Assembly: GCA_018434685.1 (NCBI GenBank)
Contig: JAHDOV010000030.1
Span: 1 to 63,565 of the forward strand
Direction of reading: 5' to 3'
DNA from: Deltaproteobacteria bacterium
GTDB taxonomy: Bacteria > Desulfobacterota > Desulfomonilia > UBA1062
DNA length: 63,565 bases
The notes under the pieces are model-generated. The model worked only from the letters and a program-made list of their open reading frames with translations, was not told where the DNA came from and made no database searches. Position 1 is the first letter of the stretch. Each line of letters opens with the position of its first letter. Below are positions 15,881 through 19,660 of the stretch, in pieces. Position numbers and translations under genes: made by a program.

Positions 15881-16735
15881 ATGGCGGATGACGGCAATGC
15901 AGCCCGGCCAGGGGATGTCGCCCCTGTCTATATCGTGTCCGGAGGGGCTGGTGCCAGTGCCGAACAGGTGGTGCATACGGTTCTGGCGCAGTTTCCCTCG
16001 GCCCAGGTCCCGGTAGTCAAGATCGCCCACGTGCACTCGGCCGAACAGATCAGGCAGGTTGCGGGCCGTGTCCGGGTTCATGGCGGGATCATCGTGCACA
16101 CCCTCGTGGACAAGAGCTTGAGAGACGCCATGAAGGCCATCGGAGCAGAGGCCGGCGTGGTGACGATCGATCTCATGGGCGAGCTGATCGGGGCCTTGAG
16201 CACCGGCCTGGGACAGGAGCCGGTCGGGAAACCGGGTTTGTACCGGCAGCTGAACAGGGATTATTTCGAGCGGGTTGAGGCCATCGAATTTGCCATGACG
16301 CACGACGACGGGAGGAGTCCTCACGAACTTCACGATGCCGATATCGTTCTGCTCGGGGTGTCGCGTGTGGGCAAGACCCCGCTGAGCATGTACCTCTCCG
16401 TACTCGGCTGGAAGGTGGCAAATGTACCGTTCATCAAGGATCAGCCGCTCCCGGACGAGGTCTTTCAGATCGAAAAAGGACGCGTCACAGGGTTGGTCAT
16501 CGACCCCCAGCGCCTCATGATCCACCGCAGGATCCGCCAGGAGCGTATTGCCGGCATGCAGCCGTCGTCCTATACGGACCCGGAGGCGGTGTTCGAAGAG
16601 CTGGAAGAATCGCGCCGGCTCTTCAGGAGAGGCGGGTTTTCCGTAATCGATATCACCGATAAACCCATGGAAACCAGTGCCGATGAGATCATCAAGCTCA
16701 TAACAAACCGGTTCGGCCACAGGCGGCCAGGGTAA
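15881..16735 (+). CDS. ppsR: PEP synthase/PPDK regulatory kinase-pyrophosphorylase (PSRP)
   Basis: 284 residues, the normal length. The family's phosphate-binding signature GVSRVGKTPLS is at 159-169, a variant of the common GVSRTSKTP with V-G replacing T-S. Family members phosphorylate PEP synthase or PPDK on a threonine with ADP and remove the phosphate with Pi, so switching gluconeogenic flux. A canonical PEP synthase is not in the window; the PEP-synthase-like protein at 35.8-38.0 kb lacks the barrel domain. Confidence 0.9.
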   Translation: MADDGNAARPGDVAPVYIVSGGAGASAEQVVHTVLAQFPSAQVPVVKIAHVHSAEQIRQVAGRVRVHGGIIVHTLVDKSLRDAMKAIGAEAGVVTIDLMGELIGALSTGLGQEPVGKPGLYRQLNRDYFERVEAIEFAMTHDDGRSPHELHDADIVLLGVSRVGKTPLSMYLSVLGWKVANVPFIKDQPLPDEVFQIEKGRVTGLVIDPQRLMIHRRIRQERIAGMQPSSYTDPEAVFEELEESRRLFRRGGFSVIDITDKPMETSADEIIKLITNRFGHRRPG

Positions 16736-17179: not shown

Positions 17180-18253
17180 ATGAGAGCAATCGCTGTAATT
17201 AACCAAAAGGGCGGATGTGGCAAAACCACGACGGCTATCAATCTTGCAGCATGTCTTGCATACCAGAAGAAAAAGGTCCTGCTGGCGGATATGGACCCCC
17301 AGGCCCATGCGACCCTGGGCCTGGGATGTGCTCCGGGTGAATATTCAAGGAGCATGTACGATCTCCTCATCGGCAGGGACGAGGGGGTGATTTCCGCCCG
17401 GGATGTCATCCTGGAGGTTTCTCCGGGTCTCCACCTGCTCCCTTCGGATGTCATGCTCAGTGCGGCAGAACCCATTCTCCTCCAGCGTGACTACCGGGAA
17501 TATTGCCTGGCAGACATCCTCTCACCCCTTGCAGCGAGCTATGACTTTATCCTCATCGATTGTCCGCCCAATATCGGGATACTCACCTTCAATGCCCTGT
17601 TTGCGTGCACGGAAGCGATCATTCCCATCGAGAGCGGGCTGTTCGCCCTGCAGGGCCTTTCGAAGCTGCTGGAGACCATAGACCTCGTCAACATCAAGAG
17701 GTCGCAGAAGATCACGGTCAATGCCCTTGCCACCCTGTTTGACCGCAGGACCAGGATCGCGCACGAATCTCTGGAGGAGATGAGAAAGATCATGGGAGGC
17801 AATGTCCTGGCCACGGTGATTAACCAGAACGTCAAGCTGAAAGAGGCCGTGGGTCACGGGAAGAGCATTATTTCCTATGCGGCTGATTCGAGCGGTTTCC
17901 GTGATTACCTTTCGCTCGCAAAGGAACTGTTGAAGATGAAGGTGGCCAAACTCCAGAAGACCCAGAGAATCGAGATGCGCAATCCCACCGTGACCGATAA
18001 CGGTGTGCTCTTCTCCTATTACGCGCCCGATGCCACGAGTGTCTCCCTGGCTGCGGATTTCAACGAATGGAAACAGGACCACACGCCGCTGAAAAACATC
18101 GAGGGCACGGGTGTCTGGCAGAAACTCGTACCCCTGGAAAAGGGACGATACGAGTATAAATTCTTCGTGGACGGCAGGTGGGTTAATGATCCCGACAACC
18201 CCAACAGGGCTGTAACGGAATTCGGGGAGAATTCGCTTCTGGAAATCAACTGA
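17180..18253 (+). CDS. ParA/Soj-type ATPase fused to a CBM48 glycogen-binding domain
   Basis: 357 residues. Residues 1-255 are a ParA/MinD ATPase with the deviant Walker A KGGCGKTT (10-17), Walker A' near DMDPQAHAT, and Walker B ILIDCPP. From about 274 to the end is an AMPK/CBM48-like beta-sandwich, with YAPDATSVSLAADFNEW and the closing YEYKFFVDGRWVNDP typical of glycogen-binding domains. ParA proteins place DNA or cargo inside cells by dynamic dimerisation. The sugar-binding tail suggests the cargo or anchor is a polyglucan or a protein partner. First of three tightly packed genes; no parB follows. Confidence 0.85.
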   Translation: MRAIAVINQKGGCGKTTTAINLAACLAYQKKKVLLADMDPQAHATLGLGCAPGEYSRSMYDLLIGRDEGVISARDVILEVSPGLHLLPSDVMLSAAEPILLQRDYREYCLADILSPLAASYDFILIDCPPNIGILTFNALFACTEAIIPIESGLFALQGLSKLLETIDLVNIKRSQKITVNALATLFDRRTRIAHESLEEMRKIMGGNVLATVINQNVKLKEAVGHGKSIISYAADSSGFRDYLSLAKELLKMKVAKLQKTQRIEMRNPTVTDNGVLFSYYAPDATSVSLAADFNEWKQDHTPLKNIEGTGVWQKLVPLEKGRYEYKFFVDGRWVNDPDNPNRAVTEFGENSLLEIN

Positions 18254-18255
18254 GC

Positions 18256-19098
18256 ATGGAAAAACCGACCACGCACGGCAGGGGCCTGGAAGAGGTTTCG
18301 CGGTATTACCTCTCCGGCGGCACCAGGGAAGAACAGGGACCGTCCAACCGGCCCCGCCGGGTGTGCGGTTCGGGGAGAATCGTGAGGGTCTGCCATCCGG
18401 GCTCCGGCCTCATGCAGTCCTGCATTGTGGCCAACCTGGCACTGGAACTTGCGAGAAACCGGTCTTCCGTTGTTGTCTGGGACTGTCCCAGCCCTGACGG
18501 TGCGGGTCTTGAATCCTTCATGGAGAGTCTCGACCTCGATCAGCAAGAGCCTGCCAGTGCCACGGTGAGGTTATACGGCCTGCCGGATATCGTCATCCAC
18601 CGGGGCAACGGCGCAGACAGCGACAAACTCTCGGATCTCGTGAGCGAAGTGAGCGCATCGAAGGACGACCGCTGCCTCCTCGTGAACAGCCACGCCTCGC
18701 TGGAGTCTTTCCGCACAGTCGATCTTTCGGGAGAGTGGATCCTCCTGGCCAGGCCGGACGAGAAGGAACTGCTGCGCTGCTATGCCTACATCAGGGTCAT
18801 CCATGAGCAGGAGCCGTCCTGCACGATCTCCCTGGTCCTCGATGATGTCGGCCAGGACCAGGACATTTCGGGCATGGCCGAGCGTTTTACGGTCTTCATC
18901 GAGGATAGGCTCCGTGTGAGCGTGCGCTTTCTTGGCGCATTGCGCCATGACGGGTACCTGAGGCGATCCATCCGGGAGAAGAGGCCCCTGGTGCTGTGGC
19001 AGGGACAATCCGGGACAAAGGATGACCTCACCTCCATCAGCGCGGGTTTTCTCGGCCTCGGACAGGGCTGGCCCAACAGGATGGATCTCCATGAGTAG
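18256..19098 (+). CDS. Degenerate ParA/MinD-like protein without a functional P-loop
   Basis: 280 residues. The fold pattern resembles ParA (SGRIVRVCHPGSG ... IVANLALELARNRSSVVVWDC), but where KGGxGK(S/T) should be it has H47-P-G-S-G-L-M-Q-S55, lacking both lysines. The later parts (EWILLARPDEKELLRCY) match MinD-like strands. It therefore probably cannot hydrolyse ATP and may pair with the ATPase encoded 2 bases upstream. It has a 55-base-scale polar N-terminal extension of about 40 residues. Assignment of the fold is from pattern only. Confidence 0.6.
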   Translation: MEKPTTHGRGLEEVSRYYLSGGTREEQGPSNRPRRVCGSGRIVRVCHPGSGLMQSCIVANLALELARNRSSVVVWDCPSPDGAGLESFMESLDLDQQEPASATVRLYGLPDIVIHRGNGADSDKLSDLVSEVSASKDDRCLLVNSHASLESFRTVDLSGEWILLARPDEKELLRCYAYIRVIHEQEPSCTISLVLDDVGQDQDISGMAERFTVFIEDRLRVSVRFLGALRHDGYLRRSIREKRPLVLWQGQSGTKDDLTSISAGFLGLGQGWPNRMDLHE

Positions 19099-19660
19099 AA
19101 TACTCAAGCCGGTCTGTGCCCGGAACGTCGAGTACGTGCACCAGGTCGTTGCCCGGTATTTTATCGACGAACATGAGTTCAGGATCGTGGAGTACAACCT
19201 CGGCAATGCCTTTACCGGGAACATCGATATCCTGGCGGCCGACACTGTCTCCCTGTTTCTCGTGACCATCAACCGGGCCGATTTTGCCGGAGCACTCCTG
19301 CGTTCACTCACGGGGTACCGGTGGTTCTGCGAAAACCGGGACTTCTTGAGGAGGGTCTACCCCCCCGAAGATGTGAATATCGATCTGCCCGTGGAGCTGA
19401 TCATACTGTCTGAAGAGTTTCCGCCGGAGATACCTTCGGTCCTGGGAGAGGTATGTTCGGTGCCGCTTAGGCTCTACCGCTACCGGCTCTTCGGGCAGGA
19501 AGAAGATCCGGATATCTTTGTCGAAGAGATCTGCAGCGAGGGCACTGTCGATCACGGTCCGTCCCGGGACCTCGATGCCCTGAGAAAGGAACTGGCCATA
19601 GAGCCCGCGGGCCTGAGCGATGAGGACATCCGGGATTTTTTAAAGGCCATGAAGGTGTGA
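19091..19660 (+). CDS. Uncharacterised protein with PD-(D/E)XK-like pattern
   Basis: 189 residues. ATG 19091 overlaps the end of the preceding gene by 8 bases, which ties it into the same operon. The segment G-N-I-D-I-L-A-A-D followed by a strand (LFLVTIN) and a long helix with R-x-x-x-x-Y-R-W resembles the core of PD-(D/E)XK nucleases such as NucS/RecB-like, but the E-x-K pair is replaced by T-x-N. It may be an inactive nuclease fold used for binding. The C-terminal 60 residues are acidic. Function unknown. Confidence 0.6.
   Translation: MSRILKPVCARNVEYVHQVVARYFIDEHEFRIVEYNLGNAFTGNIDILAADTVSLFLVTINRADFAGALLRSLTGYRWFCENRDFLRRVYPPEDVNIDLPVELIILSEEFPPEIPSVLGEVCSVPLRLYRYRLFGQEEDPDIFVEEICSEGTVDHGPSRDLDALRKELAIEPAGLSDEDIRDFLKAMKV

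Follow-up and report, generated by a model that had tools for sequence, protein, structure and literature searches.

A ParA-type ATPase with a glycogen-binding domain in a conserved three-gene operon, a possible positioning system for bacterial glycogen

Introduction

ParA/MinD ATPases are known for placing chromosomes, plasmids, carboxysomes, flagella and chemotaxis arrays. Here we ask what a ParA-type ATPase does when it ends in a glycogen-binding domain and is encoded in an operon that has no parB. The operon (genes A, B and C) lies in a 63,565-nucleotide stretch of DNA, referred to below as the window, which is an entire contig (JAHDOV010000030.1; C26 in our numbering) of a 4.29 Mb, 99% complete Deltaproteobacteria bacterium genome (GCA_018434685.1). 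We put at roughly 50% the probability that the operon is a ParA-type positioning system whose cargo is an intracellular alpha-glucan (glycogen) or an enzyme complex on it; B would be an adaptor that activates the ATPase, and C a scaffold with a dead nuclease fold. The features on which this reading is built are as follows (aa, amino acids; CBM, carbohydrate-binding module).

17180..18253, + strand: gene A, ParA-type ATPase with a C-terminal CBM48, 357 aa
17207..17233, + strand: deviant Walker A motif KGGCGKTTT of gene A, intact (KGGCGKTT invariant in 15 orthologues)
17996..18250, + strand: CBM48/AMPK-type glycogen-binding domain of A, residues 273-357, predicted from Pfam, phmmer and the contacts W297, K327, W334 and N351
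18256..19098, + strand: gene B, P-loop-less protein with a predicted FlhG/MinD fold, 280 aa
18274..18315, + strand: ParB-like N-terminal peptide of B, putatively ParA-activating, HGRGLEEVSRYYLS (orthologue conservation; ParB comparison)
18394..18420, + strand: degenerate P-loop of B, HPGSGLMQS (Walker A lysine absent in 16/16 orthologues)
19091..19660, + strand: gene C, predicted PD-(D/E)XK-fold protein, most likely inactive, 189 aa
19217..19273, + strand: degenerate nuclease motif of C by alignment (D46 retained; T59 and N61 replace the E-x-K pair)

Results

Gene A combines a ParA ATPase with a glycogen-binding module. Residues 1-178 match Pfam AAA_31 (E 4e-51), residues 273-334 match CBM_48 (E 6.6e-12, 46.0 bits, cut-off 22.4) and the protein also matches AMPK1_CBM (E 8e-10, 39.2 bits, cut-off 26.8), all three matches exceeding the curated Pfam cut-offs. 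KGGCGKTT, D37, D39 and D127 (deviant Walker A, motif 2 aspartate, Walker B) are invariant in all 15 orthologues. A preliminary description of this DNA had called A an intact ParA ending in a CBM48-like domain, and both parts of that description stand, the predicted domain being backed by the curated models. The CBM matches those of AMPK beta subunits (phmmer, E 6e-8), and W297, K327, W334 and N351 are invariant in 15/15 orthologues. We take N351 to be the equivalent of the N150 glycogen contact of AMPK beta; the loop that holds L146 and T148 in AMPK is shortened in A (F348, G349, E350). W297, K327 and W334 correspond to W100, K126 and W133 of AMPK beta-1, mutation of which markedly reduced glycogen binding (PMC2642990).

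The closest solved relative of the ATPase domain is Myxococcus xanthus ParA (PDB 8RAY, E 4e-54), and mutational data for that protein (PMC12462528) were transferred to A through the alignment with 8RAY. The catalytic D60 becomes D39 in A, and the DNA-binding R238 becomes K/R219 (15/15), a predicted DNA contact accompanied by the invariant R189, R190, R192 and K221. Around the hydrophobic pocket that receives ParB, L150, L152, L155 and L187 correspond to I132, I/L/V/M134, F137 and L/I/V169, and V116 corresponds to P98; in the site that binds R13 of ParB, A has Y60 and D61 as the conserved counterparts of Y81 and E82. We infer that the partner-peptide site of A is retained in altered form, as would be expected for an ATPase with its own partner, separate from chromosomal ParB. 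A further feature is that the motif-2 asparagine (N64 in M. xanthus) is a histidine, H43, in all 15 A orthologues and in the sister clades, and ATP hydrolysis may differ in ParAs that carry it.

The position of the genes in some relatives also points to glycogen (handles with G, C and L denote genomes, contigs and loci). In G007 a single strand carries genes for a debranching enzyme, a GT4/5 protein, a GH57 protein and a 1441-aa GT3 glycogen synthase-phosphorylase fusion, followed after about 290 bases by A, B and C. In G172 the genes for ParA-CBM48 and its partner converge with glgB, and a GH13 gene and a lone AMPK-CBM open reading frame (ORF) lie nearby; in G042 a gene for a ROK-family protein, either a sugar kinase or a regulator, is found about 1.1 kb from ParA-CBM48. 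The source genome has its glgA and GH57 genes on contig C40, away from the operon. Each of the 16 family genomes that carry B and C has a glycogen synthase (glgA in 15, the GT3 enzyme in G007), as do 4 of the 7 scored genomes without them. This association is suggestive only, given that two of the three genomes lacking a synthase have a completeness of about 78% and that the comparison is uncorrected for relatedness. The link to a polyglucan made in the preliminary description gains from these data: the contacts are invariant, the G007 trio stands behind a glycogen cluster and the G172 ParA-CBM48 stands beside glgB. Stand-alone short CBM48 ORFs (about 100-240 aa) are frequent in the operon family, for example at G000:C46:215342-215476.

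Gene B encodes a protein without a Pfam match in any of its 16 members. A profile of the 16 orthologues searched against solved structures found FlhG (4rz2, E 4e-13) and FleN (E 1e-7), and the AlphaFold2 model of B, with a predicted local distance difference test score (pLDDT) of 80, is closest to FlhG (4rz3, Z 21.5, root-mean-square deviation 3.0 over 220 residues), with Soj (1wcv) at Z 18.6. The fold as modelled is MinD-like and nearer to FlhG than to ParA. The sequence HPGSGLMQS occupies the P-loop site, and the P-loop lysine is absent in all 16 orthologues. The preliminary description, which had seen a ParA with a replaced P-loop, was right about the P-loop; the ParA kinship did not hold, and B as an ordinary ParA was rejected on the lack of Pfam matches in the 16 members and on FlhG as the top match by both structure and profile.

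The part of B under the strongest conservation lies outside this fold, in a peptide that the preliminary description did not mention. Residues 1-35 are mostly predicted to be disordered (pLDDT <50), and within them residues 9-19 have a mean commonest-residue frequency of 0.79, compared with 0.36 in the linker and 0.50-0.52 in the fold; R9, G10 and L19 are invariant (16/16). In relatives the peptide reads LGRGLxDVSRFFLS (for example MKDRPKLGRGLRDVSPFFLS), and the N-terminus of ParB from the same genomes resembles it, reading LGRGIDALF (for example MKTKPRLGRGIDALF). ParB uses its disordered tip to bind the ParA dimer, and stimulation of the ATPase requires the central arginine of that tip (PMC12462528). 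Judged by its residues, the B peptide resembles the ParA-binding motif defined in that work, which consists of hydrophobic residues around a central R/K, with L/R/L/V at these positions and R9 in 16/16. The pattern [LIVM]G[RK]G[LI] occurs within the first 20 residues of 12 of 411 distinct ORFs drawn from the window and from loci of at least 4 kb, and all 12 are B; the motif had been spotted before this count, which describes specificity and tests no prior hypothesis. B of the window (HGRGL) and three other Bs miss the strict pattern.

The same peptide occurs on a protein of another kind. In G172 the gene that follows ParA-CBM48 begins MKGRKKQGRGLAKVSHLFLSG and resembles B solely in this peptide (hhalign E 4.5e-5), so the peptide travels with ParA and not with the MinD fold. 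Because B belongs to the FlhG/MinD branch and carries a ParB-like peptide, it looks, from its sequence and model, like a partner of A, either an activator or an adaptor, and not like half of a ParA dimer.

Several observations on other partner genes belong here. The G172 gene (L117:4103-4996, - strand) encodes, in addition to the GRGL peptide, an HTH_17 domain (Pfam) and, judging from the sequence, a coiled coil and a single transmembrane helix, and its product could tie ParA-CBM48 to the membrane or to DNA. In G242 (L131) and G284 (L126), a short-tailed sister ParA without a CBM48 is followed in both loci by a 184-aa partner gene whose product begins MEKKGLARSLKDISRTFI (start MEKKGLARSLKDISRTFITA); this is possibly another orphan ParA with a peptide-bearing partner. 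The second gene of G042 and G116 was considered as a B and not counted, its relation to B being weak (hhalign E 0.04).

Gene C had been described as resembling a PD-(D/E)XK nuclease without the E-x-K pair, and the structural model agrees. The AlphaFold2 model (pLDDT 81) compared by VIA-align gave Z 10.1 with a XisH protein (2okf), 9.6 with an archaeal repair endonuclease (2vld) and 8.9 with FokI (2fok); the assignment rests on this fold search, in which several nuclease families lie within about 1 Z, and we claim no single parent family. Searches of the C profile against the sequences of solved structures returned chance matches only, and Pfam searches of the C members returned a sub-threshold UPF0102 match in one member (E 0.077) and nothing else. 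G43 and D46 are invariant, and across the family T59 stands where the E would be and N, G, S or D at position 61 in place of the K. The pair is retained in distant relatives, as VVELK in L127 (NucS_C, E 4e-6) and VVEVK in L086. Since the E-x-K pair is lost, C is most likely a non-cutting scaffold or binding protein.

No ParB-domain gene is present at the A-B-C locus, in agreement with the preliminary description; the sole ParB of the genome is on another contig (C46), beside chromosomal parA. Pfam ParB models match neither B nor C, and next to A there is no ParB with a CTPase (Srx/ParB) and a helix-turn-helix (HTH) domain; Pfam finds no DNA-binding domain in B or C across the operon family.

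The trio is conserved as a unit, to a degree beyond chance. A, B and C are contiguous in 14 of 15 relatives, all from one Thermodesulfobacteriota family, and B and C are contiguous in 15/15; neighbourhood conservation, on which the preliminary description had staked its reading, is therefore what the relatives display. Among the 60 relatives searched, B is present in 16 genomes of the family, including the source genome, and C in the same 16 and in one contig-edge fragment; matches elsewhere are weak and MinD/FlhG-like or nuclease-like. Those C carriers that have names are Deltaproteobacteria/Thermodesulfobacteriota metagenome assemblies, one of them labelled Syntrophaceae bacterium UBA1062, and a contig scan with a 9-row alignment of C gave 11 true loci and one Ruminococcus match (36% over 47 residues) that we take as chance. 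In a survey of the phylum that took in 395 genomes, only the operon family had close full-length B and C, the exceptions being a diverged B-C pair carried by G305 and, in G220, a B-like match. The G305 pair (L129, G305:C414, 3789-5446, - strand) has no adjoining ParA, so B and C may cooperate apart from A.

The ParA-CBM48 fusion is more widespread, recurring in G172, G042, G116 and G220, which represent three further families. In the tree, ParA-CBM48 and the short-tailed sister clade without a CBM form a lineage apart from chromosomal ParA (100/100), the placement of the long-branch rows L117-L119 and L121 being uncertain. The approximately unbiased test does not reject a fusion that arose only once (AU 0.499), although this is not proven. 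Searches by tblastn gave no match for B in plasmids and none for C in phages, and a query made of the ParA C-terminus and CBM48 found no record covered to at least 80% in the plasmid or phage collection; with full-length A, only the ParA part was matched among the best matches in either. An origin from a plasmid or phage was rejected on these searches, which accords with the preliminary argument against plasmid partition.

The layout in the window is as first described, A being separated from B by 2 bases and C overlapping B by 8, and the start of C at 19091 is backed by conservation (MSRILKP aligns with MTRILKP). Genes near the locus that are also near it in relatives include a rubrerythrin region and genes for an iron-sulphur protein, an MMPL transporter and a flavodoxin-like protein; this conservation fits a chromosomal site. 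Immediately upstream of the operon (15881-16735) is a Kinase-PPPase gene (PPDK/PEP-synthase regulator family), and a PPDK_N/PEP-utilizer protein is encoded on the same contig (35738-37996).

Discussion

The predicted domains, conserved motifs, conserved operon and glycogen gene context suggest how an ATPase-driven positioning cycle might work. On that footing we propose that the B peptide binds A and stimulates its ATPase, that A binds glycogen and positions it, and that the B fold and C play the parts set out below. A would cycle like other Soj-type ParAs, its ATP-bound dimer sitting on the nucleoid through basic residues. Its CBM48 tail would bind branched alpha-glucan, giving the ATPase its own cargo-binding module, and A would link glycogen, or an enzyme on glycogen, to the nucleoid. 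The disordered N-terminal peptide of B may insert at the A dimer interface as that of ParB does, triggering ATP hydrolysis and release, and the dead MinD/FlhG domain of B would serve as an adaptor, perhaps as a dimerisation or docking surface. C could be a second scaffold working with B and possibly binding nucleic acid or protein. The outcome would be glycogen spread along the nucleoid, in a directed or even manner, and shared at division. That bacterial glycogen has a dedicated ATP-driven means of positioning or segregation, in which the ParA is itself attached to the polysaccharide and a ParB-like peptide, displayed by a dead protein of the FlhG fold, switches the ATPase, we give a little less than an even chance.

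Several points weigh against a glycogen-positioning role. The function is read from sequence and predicted structure, and nearly all of the genomes are metagenome assemblies. As a rule, ParA/MinD ATPases are contacted by the disordered, charged N-terminus of their partner, the remainder of which binds cargo (PMC10241942). The first of these features speaks for B as such a partner; the second runs against the present reading, since known systems place cargo binding on the partner, not on the ATPase. At the peptide site of A, L192 of the hydrophobic pocket is lost (R174), and D110 and E117 of the R13-binding site are replaced by M92 and I/L/V/A99; B for its part has a serine at the position of ParB I19. 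In G023 (L039, G023:C136, reverse strand, about 8.56-8.87 kb of the turned locus) B and C are intact, but all that is left of A is a piece of its CBM48 interrupted by an in-frame TAA, the ParA domain being absent, which reflects either loss of gene A or an assembly error. Four family members that carry glgA lack the trio (G008, G016, G017 and G022), and, apart from G007 and G172, the locus showed no adjoining glycogen genes among the part of its neighbours that is annotated.

The CBM48 could instead report polyglucan status to the switch of A, with glycogen enzymes, transcription or division timing as the output and not movement. The CBM is located on the ATPase itself, and the AMPK CBM is allosteric, with glycogen inhibiting the kinase (PMC2642990), a precedent that makes this the main rival. 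The HTH_17 domain on the G172 partner and the MerR gene that precedes ParA-CBM48 in G116 would suit a regulatory output; B and C of the operon family, however, have no DNA-binding domain by Pfam, and the nucleoid-binding residues and the ParB-like partner peptide, both retained, would be superfluous for a pure sensor. We judge this explanation unlikely. A related question is whether the ligand is glycogen at all, as the CBM48 might recognize another sugar, such as an exopolysaccharide precursor, or might have become a protein-protein domain. The shorter equivalent of the AMPK L146/T148 loop and a UDP-glucose/GDP-mannose dehydrogenase gene about 3 kb away in G116 fit such a change, whereas all four core glycogen contacts are invariant and G007 and G172 put the gene among glycogen genes, leaving a different ligand improbable.

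Two further explanations concern the ATPase machinery. The preliminary description had paired A and B as an active and an inactive ParA. Pairing with a pseudo-ATPase is common in other families, and B is co-encoded with A and retains a MinD-type fold; against such a heterodimer, B falls in the FlhG/MinD branch and A in the Soj branch, the P-loop that B lacks sits at the MinD dimer interface, and the partners in G172 and in the tail clade have no recognised MinD fold while keeping a similar N-terminal peptide. We think it improbable to a like degree, and the ParB-like peptide favours B as an activator or adaptor instead. Ordinary DNA partition, by an accessory ParABS that serves a plasmid, a phage or part of the chromosome, would account for a bona fide ParA, for the ParB-like tip of B and for C, whose nuclease fold could bind DNA. 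B nevertheless has neither the CTPase nor the HTH domain of ParB, the genome has its own chromosomal parAB from which the ParA-CBM48 lineage is separate (100/100), relatives share several of the genes that surround the locus, and B had no plasmid match, C no phage match and the fusion was seen in neither collection, which makes DNA partition very improbable.

Should the operon indeed position glycogen, it would represent a new layout, with the cargo-binding domain on the ATPase and the activating peptide moved to a dead ATPase relative. Inheritance concentrates glycogen at the old pole of E. coli cells, with unequal divisions as a consequence (PMC12706056). Whether some bacteria distribute their carbon store actively becomes testable with a glycogen-binding ParA that is kept together with its partner in one conserved operon, and the shared N-terminal peptide offers a handle for finding the partners of other orphan ParAs. 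A ParA joined to CBM48, or a ParA system for glycogen granules, was not found among the best-ranked full-text matches in open-licence papers, and a 2025 review of organelle positioning covers carboxysomes, magnetosomes, polyhydroxybutyrate and polyphosphate with zero occurrences of 'glycogen' (PMC13052382). ParA-family positioning is itself known; the novel aspect is its combination with a built-in polysaccharide module.

Each gene of the operon has a known counterpart from which it departs. C shares its fold and a GxIDxLA motif with UPF0102 (YraN), NucS and XisH proteins of the PD-(D/E)XK group and differs in the T and N/G that replace the E-x-K pair. B is closest by profile and structure to FlhG/FleN (4rz2, 4rz3, 5j1j), with which it shares the MinD fold. 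FlhG activates its partner NTPase FlhF through an N-terminal element, the DQAxxLR enhancer helix (PMC12826062); B, in contrast, has lost the P-loop, and its N-terminal element is GRGLxxVS. Like the AMPK beta subunit and its CBM48, A has a glycogen-binding domain with W, K, W and N contacts, fused in this case to a ParA ATPase and with a shortened loop. Like the chromosomal ParA/Soj of ParABS systems (M. xanthus, 8RAY), it has the ATPase domain, the Walker motifs, the catalytic D39, the DNA-binding basic residue and the tyrosine and acidic residue of the ParB pocket, and it differs from M. xanthus ParA in the C-terminal CBM48, in H43 for N64, in the replacement of D110 and E117 and in having a partner that is no ParB. 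The system as a whole resembles McdA/McdB of carboxysomes and other ParA/MinD cargo systems (PMC10241942, PMC13052382), in which a ParA-family ATPase is co-encoded with a partner whose N-terminus is charged and disordered. Compared with McdAB-type systems, the operon described here places a sugar-binding module on the ATPase, has a partner with a dead MinD fold and would carry a polysaccharide as its likely cargo.

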